From positions 1 through 64,000 of the forward strand of contig NZ_SCFY01000006.1 of NCBI RefSeq assembly GCF_007049795.1: a stretch of DNA of 64,000 nt, in the 5' to 3' direction. The notes beneath the pieces are model-generated. The model made no database searches and was not told the DNA's origin. It saw only the letters and a program-made list of their open reading frames with translations. Below, piece by piece: positions 7,451-16,266 of the stretch. The first letter of the stretch is position 1; every line of letters starts with the position of its first letter. Both the position numbers and the translations under genes were made by a program. This DNA is from Ectopseudomonas mendocina. Its GTDB lineage: Bacteria > Pseudomonadota > Gammaproteobacteria > Pseudomonadales > Pseudomonadaceae.

Positions 7451-7903
7451 TTAGTGGCGGTGGCTTTTCCCAACATGGGTGTGGCCATCATCCGGAAGCG
7501 CACTGACACCGCCAGTGGTATTCAGGCGCTGGAGGATTCCACACTCATCTACGCCGCGCTCAGAGGAACAGCGGTGTCGTAACTCAATCAGCTGTTGTTG
7601 CAGGGCCAGCAGACTGGTCACGCGCGCTTGCACATGCTCAATGTGCTCATCCACTAAGCTATTCACACCCTCACAGTTCCCCTCTGGCCGATCCATCAGC
7701 GCCAGCAGGCTTCTGATCTCGTCCAGGGTCATGTCTAGCGTTCGGCAGTTGCGAATGAACGTAAGCCGCTCAAGGTGCTCACTGCTGTAAAGGCGGTAAT
7801 TACCCTCGCTACGGGCCGGAGCCGGCAACAGCCCCTCGCGCTCGTAATAGCGAACCGTTTCAACCTGGCAATCGGCAAGCTTGGCCAGCTCTCCAATCTT
7901 CAT
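7451..7903 (-). CDS. cadR: CadR, cadmium/lead-responsive MerR-family regulator
   Basis: A 150-residue MerR protein. The N-terminal winged helix (MKIGELAKLADCQVETVRYY) is followed by a dimerisation helix and a metal site with C77, C112 and C121. The His-rich tail (DDGHTHVGKSHRH) is typical of Pseudomonas CadR. With Cd(II), and less so Zn(II) or Pb(II), CadR untwists the promoter it is bound to and activates cadA. It is divergent from cadA, and its operator lies in the 82-bp gap. The identification is firm on tail, cysteine spacing and context. Confidence 0.93.
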   Translation of the reverse strand: MKIGELAKLADCQVETVRYYEREGLLPAPARSEGNYRLYSSEHLERLTFIRNCRTLDMTLDEIRSLLALMDRPEGNCEGVNSLVDEHIEHVQARVTSLLALQQQLIELRHRCSSERGVDECGILQRLNTTGGVSALPDDGHTHVGKSHRH

Positions 7904-7985: not shown

Positions 7986-10421
7986 ATGGCTGGCTGCTGC
8001 GGTGACGAATACAAACCTGAAGCGGTTTCAAAGGATGTCTGCTGTGACGCCAACGAAGCAAGCAAGTGCTCTGCCACAGCGGCGACAGCAGTAAATGCCG
8101 TAACCGGCTCCAGGCTCAGCAGCTTCCGCATTGCGCAAATGGACTGCCCTACCGAGCAGACGCTGATTCAGGACAAACTGAGCAAGCTCGCAGGCATAGA
8201 TAAGCTCGACTTCAACCTGATCAATCGGATTCTTGGGGTATGGCACAGCTTGCCGTCGACCGCGCCTATCGAAGCGGCGATCTCGTCCCTGGGAATGCAG
8301 GCAGAACCGCTATCTGCTGAAGGGCAAGCCCGCATCAAAATCGAACAGATGGACTGCCCAACTGAAGAAAAGCTGATCCGCGACAAGCTGACCTCGCTAC
8401 CCGGTATCAGTGCATTGGAGTTCAACCTGGTTCAACGTGTACTGACGCTCAGCCACACAGCAGAAGCGCTGCCAGCAGCACTGGCAGCGATTCGCGAGCT
8501 TGGTTTCACGCCAGTGGTTGAGGGTTCAGCAACAGCACGTGAAGAAGAGCAAGGCACCCCTCACAAGAAAGCCTGGTGGCCCTTGGCGCTCTCGGGGGTG
8601 GCCGCCTTATCGGCGGAAGTGATCCACTTTGCCGAGCTTGCGCCAGATTGGGCTGTGGCTGGCGTGGCGCTGCTCGCCATTCTGCTGTGCGGCCTGACGA
8701 CCTATAAAAAGGGCTGGATCGCGCTGAAGAACCGCAACCTGAATATCAATGCGTTGATGAGTATCGCTGTGACCGGTGCGGTGCTGATTGGGCAATGGCC
8801 AGAAGCGGCCATGGTCATGTTCCTCTTTTCTGTCGCCGAGTTGATCGAAGCGAAGTCGCTGGATCGGGCTCGCAATGCCATCCGTGGCCTGATGGATCTG
8901 ACGCCAGAGCGCGCCACGGTGCAGCAGGTCGATGGCACATGGCTGGAAGTTGACGTTAAAACCATCGCCGTAGGCGCATTGGTCAGGGTTCGACCGGGCG
9001 AACGAATCGGTCTCGATGGCGAAGTTACTGCCGGCAACTCCACCATCAACCAAGCGCCCATCACGGGGGAAAGCCTGCCCGTAGAGAAAACCATCGGCGA
9101 TCCGGTTTTTGCGGGAACCATCAATGAAGCCGGCTCCCTGGAATACCGAGTCCTGGCCGCCGCAGCCAACACCACGCTGGCACGTATCATTCACGCGGTC
9201 GAAGAGGCGCAGGGTTCACGCGCGCCGACCCAGCGCTTTGTCGATCAATTCGCCAAGGTATACACCCCTGTCGTATTCCTATTCGCCCTGGCTATCGCCA
9301 TTGTGCCGCCACTCTTCATGGCCGAGCCCTGGTACGACTGGATCTACCGTGCCCTGGTACTGCTGGTGGTTGCCTGCCCTTGCGCCTTGGTCATCTCGAC
9401 ACCTGTCACCATTGTCAGTGGTTTAGCTGCGGCTGCACGCAAAGGCATCCTGATCAAAGGCGGCGTTTATCTGGAAACTGGCGGCAAGCTTGGCTTCCTG
9501 GCCCTCGACAAGACCGGAACCATTACCCATGGCAAACCCGTGCAAACCGATTACATGCCACTGGTTGAACAGGACTCAGAACTCTGTCGCACTCATGCTG
9601 CCAGCCTCGCCAGTCGCTCTGATCACCCGGTTTCGCAAGCGATAGCCAAGCACGCCACTGAGAATGGCCTGATGTTCGCTACCGTTGAGGGATTCGAAGC
9701 CCTGCCGGGTCGAGGTGTACGGGGCACCATTGAAGGCATGGATTTCCACCTGGGTAACCACCGTCTGGTGGAAGAGCTTGGCCTCTGCTCACCCGAGCTG
9801 GAAACGACGCTGGAACGTCTCGAACGCCAAGGCAAAACAGTGGTGGTGTTGTGCAATCCGCAGCGTGCCATTGCCCTGTTCGCCGTTGCCGATACCGTCA
9901 AGGACTCCAGCCGCCAGGCAATCGAGGAGCTTCATGCGCTGGGTGTGAAGACCACGATGCTGACTGGCGATAACCCGCACACCGCAGAAGCCATCGCACA
10001 GCAGGTGGGCATCGACGAAGCACGCGGCAATCTCCTGCCAGTCGACAAATTGCAGGCCGTTGAAGCATTGCAGGCGCGCGGCTACGTTGTTGGGATGGTG
10101 GGCGACGGCATCAACGATGCGCCTGCGCTGGCGAAGTCCGAAATCGGCTTCGCCATGGCCGCCGCCGGCACGGACACGGCCATCGAAACTGCGGATGTGG
10201 CCTTGATGGATGACGACCTGCGCAAGATCCCGGCCTTCATCCGCCTATCCCAACAGACCGCCGTCATCCTCAAGCAGAACATCGTGCTGGCGTTAGGGAT
10301 CAAGGCCCTGTTTCTCGCCATTACCCTAACGGGGCAGGCGACGATGTGGATGGCCGTCTTTGCCGACATGGGCGTCAGCCTGCTGGTGGTGTTCAACGGC
10401 CTGCGCCTGCTTAAAAAGTAG
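7986..10421 (+). CDS. cadA: CadA, Zn/Cd/Pb-exporting P1B-type ATPase
   Basis: An 811-residue inner-membrane pump that exports Cd(II), Zn(II) and Pb(II) at the cost of ATP. The N-terminus holds a short Cys-rich stretch (GCCGDEY..VCC) and two metal-binding-like domains whose core is QMDCPTE (residues 51-57 and 121-127); these keep only one Cys each instead of CxxC. Then come eight helices with the CPC metal motif (VACPCALVIS, ~462), the actuator TGES (~360), the phosphorylation site DKTGT (~507) and GDGINDAP (~704). All catalytic motifs are intact. CadR controls it, and two small genes follow in the same operon. Confidence 0.95.
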   Translation: MAGCCGDEYKPEAVSKDVCCDANEASKCSATAATAVNAVTGSRLSSFRIAQMDCPTEQTLIQDKLSKLAGIDKLDFNLINRILGVWHSLPSTAPIEAAISSLGMQAEPLSAEGQARIKIEQMDCPTEEKLIRDKLTSLPGISALEFNLVQRVLTLSHTAEALPAALAAIRELGFTPVVEGSATAREEEQGTPHKKAWWPLALSGVAALSAEVIHFAELAPDWAVAGVALLAILLCGLTTYKKGWIALKNRNLNINALMSIAVTGAVLIGQWPEAAMVMFLFSVAELIEAKSLDRARNAIRGLMDLTPERATVQQVDGTWLEVDVKTIAVGALVRVRPGERIGLDGEVTAGNSTINQAPITGESLPVEKTIGDPVFAGTINEAGSLEYRVLAAAANTTLARIIHAVEEAQGSRAPTQRFVDQFAKVYTPVVFLFALAIAIVPPLFMAEPWYDWIYRALVLLVVACPCALVISTPVTIVSGLAAAARKGILIKGGVYLETGGKLGFLALDKTGTITHGKPVQTDYMPLVEQDSELCRTHAASLASRSDHPVSQAIAKHATENGLMFATVEGFEALPGRGVRGTIEGMDFHLGNHRLVEELGLCSPELETTLERLERQGKTVVVLCNPQRAIALFAVADTVKDSSRQAIEELHALGVKTTMLTGDNPHTAEAIAQQVGIDEARGNLLPVDKLQAVEALQARGYVVGMVGDGINDAPALAKSEIGFAMAAAGTDTAIETADVALMDDDLRKIPAFIRLSQQTAVILKQNIVLALGIKALFLAITLTGQATMWMAVFADMGVSLLVVFNGLRLLKK

Positions 10422-11492: not shown

Positions 11493-12053
11493 ATGAAAGC
11501 ACCAAAACTCGCCGCGTTCGCTTTGGCGGCTGCGCTTTTTCCGGCCTTAACCTTTGCGCAGCAGGACTCCAGTGCCACCAGCCAGGCTCAACAGCAGCCA
11601 ATGAGCGTTGAGCAATTTGATCAAGAGATGGCGAAGGCACAAGAAAACCTGAAGAAAATGCAGGAGCAAATGAACCAAATTCAGAAAGCTAGCGACCCTG
11701 CACAGCGTCAGAAACTGATGCAAGAGCACCAAACCATGATGCAGCAAGGAATGCACATGATGAACGGAATGCGTGGCGGCGGAATGATGGGGTGCTGCGG
11801 AGGGGGCATGCAGGGCGGTCACATGATGGGTGACGGTCAGATGATGGGCGGTGGCCACATGATGGGTAACGGTAAGATGATGGGTGGGGGCCACATGATG
11901 GGCTGGGATCAAATGGGCAGCCACTACTCCCAGATGACGCCTGAGCAGATGAAGCAGCATCAATACATGATGGACAGGTACATGGGCATGCAACAGATGA
12001 TGATGGATCAGATGATGCAGCATCAGCAGCATATGGGCATGCCACAGCGCTGA
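11493..12053 (+). CDS. Met/His-rich exported protein, probable periplasmic metal binder
   Basis: A 186-residue protein with a classic signal peptide (MKAPKLAAFALAAALFPALTFAQ). The mature part has a charged, probably coiled-coil segment (FDQEMAKAQENLKKMQEQMNQI), then a Met/Gly/His-rich region of repeated HMMGxGxMMGGG units with a GCCGGG patch, and a Met/Gln-rich tail ending HQQHMGMPQR. Thioether and imidazole clusters of this kind bind Cu(I)/Ag(I) in CopA/CopC/PcoE-like periplasmic proteins; binding here is inferred. It has its own promoter region (225-bp gap) in the metal cargo. Confidence 0.75.
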   Translation: MKAPKLAAFALAAALFPALTFAQQDSSATSQAQQQPMSVEQFDQEMAKAQENLKKMQEQMNQIQKASDPAQRQKLMQEHQTMMQQGMHMMNGMRGGGMMGCCGGGMQGGHMMGDGQMMGGGHMMGNGKMMGGGHMMGWDQMGSHYSQMTPEQMKQHQYMMDRYMGMQQMMMDQMMQHQQHMGMPQR

Positions 12054-12444
12054 GACTTCACACTTATTCCACGGGCAGCATGCTGTTCCCGTACGGTATG
12101 AATACTCTCATGCGCCAGCCCAACTCACGCTAGGGGCGTTGGGCTCCCCCGATTCAATTTTTGGCTCACCTGAAGATTCAGCGCTAAAGCTCCTGTGAAT
12201 GGTGACTTTTTTGTGCGCTCCGTCGACGCATCAACCAATAGGGGGCACGAATACGTCAACTCTGTATCAGCGGACACCTACATGTCTGGCTGGCTAATGG
12301 CTGCTTTTGGCCGAGAGCTGCCGGTCATATCCAGCCCAAGAGGCTATCGAGTAACTACTTAATGAGGGGCGATTCACTATGCCCCTGGCTCAGCGCCAAG
12401 ATCATCGGTCGACCCTGGATATGTGCCTGGCAAAACTCCCCCTT
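12054..12444. other. Intergenic region with a Pseudomonas repeat word
   Basis: No coding frame is supported. It holds a weak hairpin after the Met-rich gene (12068-12090) and, at 12296-12328, the word GGCTGCTTTTGGCC followed by GAGAGCTGCCGGTCA, an intergenic repeat common in Pseudomonas. Relatives occur at about 5407, and reversed at about 4240. Confidence 0.45.
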
Positions 12445-13122
12445 CTACACCATAGGGACTTCACAGCCGAGATAAGTGCCTGAGAGCCTAACCCGATCGA
12501 AACTGTATACGTGTGTGTAGGGGCTCTCGATGCAGCGCCCGACGATGGGTAGCGCCTGATCAGGCTTACCCGGCATCAGAAGCACCCGCCCGCTGCAAAT
12601 CGGGCAATCAGCACTGAAACGGACAAATCTCGTCCACTGCTGCCCCTCGCTGTCGCGGTGCATTTCTAGCTCCGCAGAATCCTCAAGGATCGAGAGCAAC
12701 GCAGAGGGTGCCTTGATGACACGATCATCGACCAGTCGCCACCAGGGGGCATAGAAATTTGCCCAGATGAACCAGGCAAACAGCCCCCCAAGGGCAGCCT
12801 CCTCGATCATCTGCGGGTCGATATTGTGGCCGCTCCGGATGATCACGTCCTTTGCACGTCCGACTATCCTCAGCTCACCATTCGCCGTCACCTCCCCCAG
12901 ATCACCTGAAGCAAACCATCCTCCTTCGGGATTACCAACAACACCTTCCGCAGTGAGATAGCCCTGAAAGACATTCGGCCCTCGCACGAAGACTTCACCG
13001 GATGCACCGGGCCCATATTGAGCTCCCGCCTCGCCCAAGCTGACCTGCACCAAAGGAACCGGCACACCTGCAGTTTGTGCATCGGAAGAACTGAAAATCC
13101 TATAGTCCACAGCCCCAAACAT
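12445..13122 (-). CDS. Chimeric protein: acyl-CoA synthetase segment joined to a small membrane protein
   Basis: A 225-residue frame made of unlike parts. Residues 1-20 (MFGAVDYRIFSSSDAQTAG) match nothing I know. Residues ~21-111 are a clear piece of an AMP-binding acyl-CoA synthetase: ASGEVFVRGPNVFQGYL, WFASGDLGEV, GRAKDVIIRSGHNIDP. Residues ~112-225 have a short hydrophobic segment (LFAWFIWANFYAPWW), then a CPIC pair and an ending GTYLGCEVPMV unlike any synthetase. The enzyme piece lacks the ATP-binding and adenylation core, so it cannot be catalytic. It starts 5 bp after the stop of the upstream gene, which suggests the frame once encoded the partner of that gene and took in the synthetase piece. 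Confidence 0.55.
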   Translation of the reverse strand: MFGAVDYRIFSSSDAQTAGVPVPLVQVSLGEAGAQYGPGASGEVFVRGPNVFQGYLTAEGVVGNPEGGWFASGDLGEVTANGELRIVGRAKDVIIRSGHNIDPQMIEEAALGGLFAWFIWANFYAPWWRLVDDRVIKAPSALLSILEDSAELEMHRDSEGQQWTRFVRFSADCPICSGRVLLMPGKPDQALPIVGRCIESPYTHVYSFDRVRLSGTYLGCEVPMV

Positions 13123-13126
13123 ACAC

Positions 13127-13783
13127 TCAGAGTTCCTTCACCTTCTTCAACGCATGCAACCCATGCAGCGCTTCATCCCAAAGGTAACCACCCAGCTTCG
13201 AGATACTGGTAAACCACTCACTGCGTACGCCATCAATCAGCAGAATAACTCGACGATTGCTAACGAAGTCGCCATCAAAACTCATGGAGTAGTCGTCAAT
13301 CTGAAGCCCGCCCCACGGTTCGATCACTGAAGACGCGGCAATACCATCAGCAAAGGCATTGCCAGCGGTTTGGTACTCATCAATACCATCGTCCGTGCTT
13401 GCGTATGCATACAACTGCCTCCGCAGATAAGTGACAGACTGAGCAGTGCGATTCAACAACCAGACTGGCTGTTTATCCGAGCACCGCGAAAAGAAGGGTA
13501 TTGCCAAGTAAAGCCCTTCAGGCGCTTCCTGCTCATAGGCGTGCAAGTTCGCATGCGCGATAAGATCCGCCACCTGCGAGCGGCGCCTGGCAAGCACATC
13601 AAAAGCATCGTCATCCATTCTGGGGCGGCACCCACTAAAAGACTCCAGGGCAGTGCAGGCCGACGTCAGCCGCGCATACCGAGCCAACTCGTCTGCATGC
13701 TTCTGCGCCACTTGCGGATGGCATTTATCCGCAAGGCGTGAAGCCAGGCCCATGACCTCATCGTGAATGGGTCTACGAAACAT
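13127..13783 (-). CDS. Hypothetical island protein
   Basis: A 218-residue soluble protein starting MFRRPIHDEVMGLASRLADK. No recognised domain. A helical N-terminal third is followed by a mixed region with PEGLYLAIPFF, PWGGLQIDDYSMSFDGDF and a C-terminal WFTSISKLGGYLWDEAL. It has no signal peptide or membrane segment. It is read with the chimeric gene downstream (5-bp gap), lies just before alpA copy 2, and has no similarity that I can see to core genes. Probably an accessory gene of the integrative element. Confidence 0.6.
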   Translation of the reverse strand: MFRRPIHDEVMGLASRLADKCHPQVAQKHADELARYARLTSACTALESFSGCRPRMDDDAFDVLARRRSQVADLIAHANLHAYEQEAPEGLYLAIPFFSRCSDKQPVWLLNRTAQSVTYLRRQLYAYASTDDGIDEYQTAGNAFADGIAASSVIEPWGGLQIDDYSMSFDGDFVSNRRVILLIDGVRSEWFTSISKLGGYLWDEALHGLHALKKVKEL

Positions 13784-13938
13784 TTGATACTCCTTGATCC
13801 CCAGCGCTCAAATCAGGCTAACGCGCGAATAAGCATGAGCTAGATCTACGCAGAACGATGCAGGTAGTGGCCAACCGTTGATACTGATTCTGGTTCAAAC
13901 GGTCGACACCATATTCCTCCGACCAGCACTGTAGAAGC

Positions 13939-13965
13939 GATCATAGGATCAAAAGTCCTATGATC
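13939..13965. repeat. Hairpin with a 7-nt loop beside alpA copy 2
   Basis: GATCATAGGA and TCCTATGATC form a perfect 10-bp stem around TCAAAAG. Position and loop length match the hairpin at 1075-1093 beside alpA copy 1, though stem and loop sequences differ apart from the innermost TAGGA/TCCTA. Confidence 0.55.
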
Positions 13966-13973
13966 CTTTCAGG

Positions 13974-14000
13974 CAAAAAAATGCCGGTCATATGACCGGC
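13974..14000 (-). terminator. Rho-independent terminator of alpA copy 2
   Basis: GCCGGTCATATGACCGGC (13983-14000) is a perfect 18-bp palindrome followed on the minus strand by a T run, just after alpA. Confidence 0.85.
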
Positions 14001-14007
14001 CTCTTTA

Positions 14008-14190
14008 CTATCTCGCTGCAGCTGCACTGGCTATCCAGTCGTCGACTTCGTGCTGAAGCCAGCGGCTTGCTCGGCCTATCTTCACCTGTCTCGGGAAGTC
14101 ACCCTCTCGGATACGGCAGTAGATAGTTTTACGACTCAATCCGACTTTGCGGCTAACCGCATTGAAGTCCAGAAGGATCATCTCAGACAT
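14008..14190 (-). CDS. alpA: AlpA-family helix-turn-helix regulator (copy 2)
   Basis: The 60-residue product is identical to copy 1 (1140-1322), although the DNA differs at several bases. The helix-turn-helix VSRKVGLSRKTIYCRI is intact, and GGGAGGTGGG precedes the ATG at 14190. It lies 242 bp downstream of the intact integrase on the same strand, the usual place for the activator/excision factor of P4-like elements. Confidence 0.88.
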   Translation of the reverse strand: MSEMILLDFNAVSRKVGLSRKTIYCRIREGDFPRQVKIGRASRWLQHEVDDWIASAAAAR

Positions 14191-14432
14191 AACCCACCTC
14201 CCAGAAAGAGAGGCTGGTGGATTCATGTGGGCACTGCGGTGGTAATGCGTTCCTCATAGCTGACTGCTCTGCCGGATCATGCCTTCCAGGCATTAGTTCT
14301 ACTTTTCCAATTCCGCTGCGCATCAAGTAGACAACGTCACAGCAGCAAACCTAGAGGCTCCGGATAACCTCACGCCTGTATATTTACACAGCAACCTAGG
14401 CCGCACAACAAAATGCTTGACTTTCCTGGAAC

Positions 14433-15896
14433 TTATCCTTTCTCGAACAAATCCAGCTGCTCAGCCTGATACTCATCCTCATCAGGACTATCGAGCAGGC
14501 GGCTAAGCGCGGCATCGAAAGCCTCCATGGTCGGGCGCATCTGAGGCAATTTCGCTTCGGGGTTATTGCGATAGTGCACCTCGACAACACCTGTTTGTCC
14601 GTGCGACTGCAACGCGTCGCTATCGAAATCCTTGATGCCGTGGCGCTGCATGAACTGTGTGCAGGTACGCCGGATATCACGCGGAGTAAATTTCGGCACG
14701 GGCTGGCCATCCAACTTGGCATGCTCAGTCGCAAACCACTCGGTCACCGCATGAGACAGGCTGGACGCGTGAATCGGCTTTTGTCCACCAACGCTCCAAG
14801 GGTATACGGCCCCTGGAGGCTGCAAGGCACGAACCTGTTCAAGTATCTGCAAAGCCCTGCTGCTCAAGGGAACGAAGTGAGCACGTTTTTTACTGCCACG
14901 CCCTTTGCTATCGATGATCTTCAAGTACTTCTTTTGAAAGTTGTAGCTGGTCCAAGGCTCACGGATAAACTGGAGGGGGCGCTGCCCTGCAGTAGCAAAA
15001 GCAAAGTGAAAGACACGCGCCATAATTGCACCAACCGAATCGACCTTGGTAATGGTGTGCCAAAATTGCTTCAGCTCCTTATCCGTCAGAGCGCGCTCGC
15101 CAGGCTTTGATGTGTTCGGGACAGTCACTGGATCAGCAGGATTCATCTGCAGTCCGTAGCTTTTATTGCTGCTTCGGTCGATATGATGCTCAGCTTTCAA
15201 GCCAAAACTGAAAGCTGCCACGAGAAACGAACGAACCTTGCCAGTCTGACGCCCCGCTCCTCGGTCCCAGATTGGTTTCAGCAGTAGATTCACATGCTCT
15301 GGCCTGACATCCTTAGCCTTCATAGCCATGACATTGAGTCTCTGCTCCTGGCCATCGTCGGCCACCGAAACCACTTTTTCGCCCTCCAGATCGTTACGCA
15401 GAACGCGCTCAAACTCATCGATCTGCTGGGCTGATACACCCGAGCGCCTACGATCTTCGATGTAATCCCGGAACAGCTCAGAAAAGGTGCCTTTTGCAGC
15501 TTCGATTTCGGCGAGACGTTGCTGCTCGTGCAGCTGGCGTTGGAGCTCAGCCTGCCGAGCCTCCTCCTCAGCGGCACACTTGGCTTGATAGGCCTTTATG
15601 TCACCATGATCTGCTGCAATCTTGGCGAGACGAACAGCTTGCTCGCGAATTTCAGTAAGGGAGAGACCTGGGCTCTTCGGCGTTTTCTTGAAGACACCTA
15701 TCTTGACCTTCTGCCCACCCTCACCACGGCGGCGGTAGTAGGCCTCGACAGCTCCCGAGGTACGGCATTCGAACAAAATTGATCCGCTACCACGGCCTGG
15801 CAGCGAATCGGTCGCAGTCTGACCAGGCCGTAGCGCCTTCAACTCCACATCCGTTACAAACTTCCTACTGCTCGTCTTGCCCGATGCCTCTGCCAT
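14433..15896 (-). CDS. int: Tyrosine-type site-specific integrase
   Basis: A 487-residue integrase that should catalyse integration and excision of the island at the adjacent tRNA. It has an N-terminal arm-binding domain (to ~105), a coiled and charged linker (AAEEEARQAELQRQLHEQQR), a core-binding SAM-like domain (~130-240) and the catalytic domain. Catalytic elements visible: Arg in ATAGQRPLQF, DIRRTCTQF, the His box LQSHGQT and the nucleophile region VHYRNNPEAK. Its length is slightly above P4-type integrases and it looks intact. Transcription runs away from the att site at 16050-16094. Two direct 12-bp repeats lie directly upstream. Confidence 0.92.
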   Translation of the reverse strand: MAEASGKTSSRKFVTDVELKALRPGQTATDSLPGRGSGSILFECRTSGAVEAYYRRRGEGGQKVKIGVFKKTPKSPGLSLTEIREQAVRLAKIAADHGDIKAYQAKCAAEEEARQAELQRQLHEQQRLAEIEAAKGTFSELFRDYIEDRRRSGVSAQQIDEFERVLRNDLEGEKVVSVADDGQEQRLNVMAMKAKDVRPEHVNLLLKPIWDRGAGRQTGKVRSFLVAAFSFGLKAEHHIDRSSNKSYGLQMNPADPVTVPNTSKPGERALTDKELKQFWHTITKVDSVGAIMARVFHFAFATAGQRPLQFIREPWTSYNFQKKYLKIIDSKGRGSKKRAHFVPLSSRALQILEQVRALQPPGAVYPWSVGGQKPIHASSLSHAVTEWFATEHAKLDGQPVPKFTPRDIRRTCTQFMQRHGIKDFDSDALQSHGQTGVVEVHYRNNPEAKLPQMRPTMEAFDAALSRLLDSPDEDEYQAEQLDLFEKG

Positions 15897-15919
15897 TTTG
15901 CGTACCGTTTTGCGTACCG
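15896..15919. repeat. Two tandem 12-bp repeats at the integrase start
   Basis: TTTTGCGTACCG occurs twice back to back (15896-15907 and 15908-15919), overlapping the int start codon. Because 12 is a multiple of 3, the repeat leaves the upstream frame open. It may bind the integrase or a regulator, or reflect slippage. Confidence 0.6.
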
Positions 15920-16049
15920 TTTCTTAGGGCATGACCGGCCACACCCAGAACCAAAGGGAAACACCTAACCCCTTGAATTTAGGATAACGCGCTAAATCGG
16001 CTTTTTTCGGGAGACAACGGGAAACGACCAGAAACGTGCTTTTTACTGC

Positions 16050-16094
16050 CTCATAATCCTTTGGTCCACGGTTCGAGTCCGTGTGGGCCCACCA
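16050..16094 (+). tRNA. 3' fragment of a CAU-anticodon tRNA (island attachment site)
   Basis: The sequence holds the anticodon loop CTCATAA, its 3' stem, variable region, a T-arm with loop TTCGAGT, the 3' acceptor strand TGGGCCC, discriminator A and CCA at 16092-16094. The 5' half that should begin GGGCCCA is absent; upstream sequence is island DNA. Anticodon CAU means tRNA-Met or the lysidine-modified tRNA-Ile2, which cannot be told apart from this half. This is the duplicated core left by integrase-mediated insertion; the complete tRNA should be at the other end of the island. Confidence 0.85.
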
Positions 16095-16099
16095 CCTTC

Positions 16100-16124
16100 A
16101 AAGCCGCGCACTGCGCGGCTTTTG
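16100..16124 (+). terminator. Native terminator of the tRNA
   Basis: AAGCCGCGCACTGCGCGGCTTTT: an 8-bp stem (AGCCGCGC/GCGCGGCT) followed by TTTT, directly after the tRNA CCA. It marks the start of non-island chromosome. Confidence 0.8.
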
Positions 16125-16266
16125 TGTTTCTGCGATGAGAAAGAATCGCTGCGGCGGCCCACCAACTTCACCCACGCCACCCACAGAGCGTCTACGCGCC
16201 CCAAGGGCTATAACAATCTCCGGGGATGCCAAAACTGTGGCCGCACTAGATGGGAGTAATTAGACA

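Follow-up and report, generated by a model that had tools for sequence, protein, structure and literature searches.

Chimeric or mosaic open reading frames (ORFs) that arise by illegitimate recombination are a general phenomenon in the variable regions of bacterial genomes. The 225-aa ORF at positions 12445-13122 (minus strand) of the window, the whole stretch of 64,000 nucleotides analysed here, is similar to these ORFs in its sharp joins, short microhomology, and location in the variable zone of an island. The only difference found is that this ORF happens to stay in frame. Two described or conserved protein types are represented in it. The best-scoring curated model is that of PRK07529-type acyl-CoA synthetases (NF005714), which covers residues 35-109; in comparison with these enzymes, the chimera has just about 100 residues and is devoid of the P-loop and C-terminal lysine regions. 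The second relative is an unnamed 342-aa membrane/CPxC protein encoded in genome G317. The last ~114 residues of this protein are present in the chimera with 96% identity, while the N-terminal two thirds, along with the main membrane segment, are absent; its CoiA-family partner has no match within the window. Because the defining parts of both families are missing, the ORF is assigned to neither of them. It is a real splice of leftovers from two unrelated genes. We consider it, with a probability of roughly 87%, to be an accidental scrap that illegitimate recombination left in the island's variable zone, and most likely not a working gene.

General features of the chimeric ORF

As the original prediction had proposed, the ORF is a three-part in-frame chimera. 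All parts are located on the minus strand: a leader of codons 1-12 (13087-13122), a fragment of an acyl-CoA synthetase gene corresponding to codons ~13-111 (12790-13086), and the 3' third of a membrane/CPxC gene together with approximately 70 bp of its 3' flank (12374-12796). The endpoints of homology to the respective relatives are sharp: 13087 (G078); 12791 (G113); and 12796 (G317). At the right join (12790-12796, minus strand), sequence comparison revealed TGCCCTT as common to the chimera and G317, and GGGGCTGTTTGCC is also shared by both shortly after this border. The synthetase gene of G113 carries GCCCT at the matching place. The overlap between the parental sequences would, at a guess, amount to 5 to 7 bases. 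We infer that the right join was formed at short microhomology, with which its sequence is consistent.

The genome assembly, a draft, consists of 58 contigs, which might speak for an assembly artefact. Both joins, however, are present in the single-contig genome G255 (L051:4062 onward; 99.2% nucleotide identity over 634 bp), so the chimera is not an assembly error and this explanation has a negligible probability.

Origin of the acyl-CoA synthetase fragment

The AMP-binding synthetase piece named in the original prediction was recovered, with a length of about 100 residues. NCBIfam model PRK07529 (acyl-CoA synthetase) matched residues 35-109 with an E-value of 2e-23 (82.6 bits, against a cutoff of 632), and PF00501 matched residues 15-56 below its cutoff (E 1.9e-5; 24.1 versus 29.9 bits). 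At E <= 1e-22, matches to this piece were detected in three of 398 genomes of the genus, namely in the genome under study, in G255, which has the same chimera, and in G113. The latter match, 69% identical over residues ~15-111, lies inside an intact 644-aa synthetase, with the chimera aligning to residues 386-494. S. stutzeri KOS6 has 82% identity over a stretch of 44 aa; its related synthetase is only partly readable, as the preceding sequence consists of N. A donor from the own genome was rejected, the best paralogue being 50% identical.

The motif positions in the G113 synthetase are 233, 377, 454, 470, and 557. The fragment contains SGDLGE and GRAKDVIIRSGHNIDP; the latter, the hinge region of an adenylate-forming enzyme, occurs at residue 470 of the G113 protein. 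The P-loop region of such an enzyme, TGGTTGLPK in G113 (residue 233), is outside the retained part and absent from the chimera. Also absent is the C-terminal lysine region, PLTPFAKVARF in G113 (residue 557), which lies beyond the join.

Relatives of the membrane/CPxC part

Residues 112-225 of the chimera have matches in nine of 398 genomes of the genus at E <= 1e-6, the own genome included. The search for an intact relative of this C-terminal part was successful: in G317 (L050:16796-17218; 89.4% nucleotide identity) it forms the end of the intact 342-aa protein. G255 possesses, elsewhere on its chromosome, a separate intact membrane protein of 327 aa with 89% identity to the C-terminal part. 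Further intact relatives were found in P. otitidis and on two plasmids, one from Acinetobacter and one from Psychrobacter. The alignment of five sequences of the CPxC part displays 27 invariant columns, including C62, C65, and C86, all of which are kept in the chimera. The strongest hydrophobic segment of the G317 protein (about residues 182-216) is absent; the mean hydropathy does not exceed 1.3 in any 19-residue stretch of the chimera, as compared to a peak of 2.78 in the G317 protein. At E <= 0.1, the membrane proteins of G317 and G255 have no match in Pfam and PADLOC, and that of G317 has none in NCBIfam.

Fourteen sequences were searched for the neighbourhood of this gene. Its full or nearly full-length copies were oriented divergently to a CoiA-family gene at nine of nine loci. 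This arrangement was seen at L009, L010, L050, L052-L056, and L077, with membrane/CPxC proteins of 326-418 aa in the ORFs listed. The Pfam domain CoiA_N in the neighbouring protein scored above the cutoff in the G317 copy and below it in the G255 copy, and PADLOC gave a weak match to the DruB N-terminal model (3.1e-5 in G255). The two genes possibly represent an undescribed defence or DNA-handling pair. G317 also contains a second stretch (L050:4565-4819) with 38% identity to the CPxC end, close to a tRNA-Met repeat (L050:4864-4919).

In the layout originally suggested, the synthetase piece had been inserted into an otherwise present membrane gene, and the membrane-gene part is indeed preceded in frame by synthetase sequence. 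A search of the own genome (G000, the 58-contig draft) with residues 1-228 of the G317 protein, however, gave no match at E <= 0.001, so that most of the gene is missing rather than split, and the synthetase piece is bordered on its left by the 218-aa module, an arrangement also seen in G078. An insertion is thus extremely unlikely.

Island module and the left join

The 218-aa gene upstream of the chimera (13127-13783, minus strand) is 100% identical in G255 and 95% identical in G078. Its product has no family match in Pfam, NCBIfam, or PADLOC. Matches to this orphan occur in eight of 398 genomes of the genus, in five of which (the own genome and G255 included) they are full or nearly full length with 62-100% identity. 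The module continues with genes for an AlpA-type regulator of 72 aa (14008-14226, minus strand; PF05930, 1.3e-11) and an island integrase of 487 aa (14433-15896, minus strand), the latter identified by its context and by weak profile matches that do not reach the cutoffs. It is followed by a repeat of a tRNA-Met 3' end at 16050-16122, the likely attachment site, which is 98.6% identical to L052:19271-19343; that sequence overlaps a tRNA-Met gene at L052:19299-19375. No whole tRNA gene was found within the window.

A second, partial copy of the alpA/integrase 3' end is located at 1076-2086 of the window and has ~91-92% nucleotide identity to L051, L070, and L073. Its integrase part is 76% identical at the amino acid level over residues 318-487. 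This second copy suggests two islands in tandem. The window also contains a Met/His/Gln-rich ORF (11493-12053); close to it lie a MerR-like ORF (7451-7903) and one resembling heavy-metal P-type ATPases (7986-10421), all three named by eye from their translations.

The DNA of the window is homologous to that of G078 (L070) at 90% and without interruption between 16132 and 13087. This stretch comprises the tRNA repeat, the integrase, alpA, the 218-aa gene, and the first 36 bases of the chimera. The corresponding frame in G078 has no upstream start codon and is open for just ~37 codons, which indicates that codons 1-12 of the chimera are intergenic DNA behind the 218-aa gene and that the ATG is a local accident. 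The unrelated N-terminus considered possible in the original prediction does exist, but it is these 12 codons of intergenic sequence.

G078 has the palindrome ATAGGA-TTTTCAG-TCCTAT at the left join. The window retains the left arm and the spacer (13091-13103) and departs from the G078 sequence within the right arm. Among 249 genomes of the genus, a draw to which G255 did not belong, the left join was found at <=3 mismatches in one, the own genome. A palindromic site of the same type, ATAGGA-N7-TCCTAT, was identified by pattern search between alpA and the 218-aa gene (13943-13961); this is the one match in the window at <=1 mismatch, versus 0.03 expected. Copies of TAGGA-N7-TCCTA were recorded at 13943-13961 and about 1076-1095 of the window and at 12243 and 13097 of L070. 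The latter two copies lie on either side of the 218-aa gene of G078. A reading of the palindrome as the anticodon arm of a tRNA was dropped.

The search with the integrase yielded 21 matches in 19 of 298 genomes. Of the 20 matches besides the window's own full copy, the nine with >=76% identity were aligned (L157-L163, L175, and L176); the remaining 11 have 44-49% identity. Homology ends at the site in five of these nine loci, one of them (L175) being the window's own second, partial copy; it ends 13 bases before the site in one (L176) and extends past it in three. The palindromic site may mark a point of cargo exchange, but the same picture would be expected if a functional site were followed by DNA that diverges fast. 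The two arms around 7 bases resemble, in our opinion, the crossover site of a tyrosine recombinase. The synthetase piece begins inside the right arm of TAGGA-N7-TCCTA, and another copy of this sequence ends the integrase-alpA module. These observations would fit a non-random left join, with the chimera as debris left when cargo was exchanged site-specifically at the islands' inner border, separate from the tRNA attachment site. We regard this version of events as rather unlikely.

Occurrence in other genomes

The synthetase piece and the membrane part occur together in two of 398 genomes of the genus, the own genome and G255. The search for homologues of the complete chimera in many strains, which would have made it an ordinary family, gave no others, and the copy in G255 is broken. 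A scan of genome contigs gave 129 relatives; among the 80 loci kept, 78 matched the synthetase piece only, two the membrane part only, and none both. For L076, L077, and L098 the scan ranges crossed the join; a repeated search identified an intact membrane gene in L076 and L077 and synthetase only in L098. In G064, a genome of the same species, neither the membrane part nor, at 1e-22, the synthetase piece gave a match. PADLOC had no match for the chimera. Megablast gave no match to it among 72,556 plasmid records. In tblastn searches of plasmids, synthetase matches were obtained and the membrane part was found alone in H19 and H30 (among the 40 of 1087 records listed). The tblastn search of phages returned 11 records, all of which were <60% identical and covered less than 80% of the query, and the 30-mer at the right join had no exact match in viral contigs.

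G255 shares 12568-16132 with the window at 98.3% identity, both joins included (98-99% DNA identity at the joins). There are no differences in the 218-aa gene, one in 12791-13126, and five in 12568-12790, two of which are gap positions. The G255 ORF ends at 132 aa owing to a frameshift that follows codon 126, near 12746. From 12568 on, the sequence of G255 is unrelated to the window. In G012, the integrase module is 98.2% identical and the chimera is absent: homology breaks off at 13375 and resumes at 12378-12299, with AGT shared at the jump, and the 218-aa gene is cut at about residue 137. G012 may have arisen from the arrangement of the window by deletion, or its join may be of independent origin.

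Openness of the frame and selection

An open frame of 225 codons across both joins had been judged unlikely without selection or very recent origin. Recent origin agrees with the presence of both parts in just the own genome and G255. The argument for selection did not hold. Behind the leader of the window, random pieces of 297-299 nt from the G113 gene were fused in silico to 3' parts of the G317 gene that were likewise chosen at random. Among 20,000 such fusions, the frame of the native stop was open, with a start >=60 codons upstream of the join, in 42% and, with a start >=90 codons upstream, in 35%. These shares refer to fusions in the sense orientation, as in the window; allowing either orientation would about halve them. 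The openness of the 225-codon frame is no more than chance would give. In addition, the G255 copy is frameshifted and cut short, and the region is missing in G012.

Comparison of 105 codons of the CPxC part between the window and G317 gave 24 substitutions in synonymous and three in nonsynonymous codons (pS 0.33; pN 0.012; pN/pS about 0.04), which indicates that this part was strongly constrained, presumably mostly before the fusion. In the G255 chimera, codons 127-185, behind the frameshift, differ from the window by three nonsynonymous and no synonymous changes; at each of these three codons, G317 matches the window. The ratio of 3:0 (G255) differs from that of 3:24 (G317) with a Fisher p of 0.005; this becomes 0.016 with the synonymous difference of codon 57 added and 0.034 with that of codon 126 too, the latter adjoining the G255 indel. 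The substitution pattern reveals decay in G255 and speaks to this broken copy, not to that in the window.

The ATG of the chimera lies 4 bp behind the stop codon of the 218-aa gene, with AAGGA upstream, and translation by coupling to that gene is therefore conceivable. A new functional fusion gene might be produced in this way, in which the CPxC domain and a short hydrophobic stretch keep a role. The intact 225-codon frame, its start close behind the 218-aa stop, and the retained invariant columns with their three cysteines speak in favour of this possibility. The broken frame in G255, the loss of the region in G012, the low hydropathy relative to the G317 protein, and the restriction of the combined parts to two genomes of the genus make it very improbable.

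Proposed origin and significance

The most probable explanation is illegitimate recombination in the variable zone just behind the conserved integrase-alpA module of an island with a tRNA-Met repeat. As the comparison with G078 shows, a fragment of a synthetase gene was joined behind the 218-aa gene, inside the palindromic site. In a later or simultaneous event, the 3' end of this fragment was joined to the last third of the membrane/CPxC gene, probably at a microhomology of 5-7 bases. The frames matched by chance, as expected in about one case in three, and an accidental ATG behind the 218-aa stop opened the reading frame. If a product is made, it would lack the P-loop, the C-terminal lysine region, and the main membrane segment, and most likely has no function. 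Against a scrap it may be said that the window copy is intact and possibly translated by coupling, that just two genomes carry the fusion, and that the signal of relaxed constraint comes from G255, whose frame is already broken, and becomes weaker with the one or two added synonymous differences.

The ORF as a gene is probably without importance. It provides a clear example of how a chimera can remain in frame for 225 codons without any need for selection, both source genes having relatives and the sister copies being broken or absent. It also calls for caution before ORFs of this kind are labelled acyl-CoA synthetases or membrane proteins. Of all parts, just the palindromic site at the edge of the cargo may merit follow-up.
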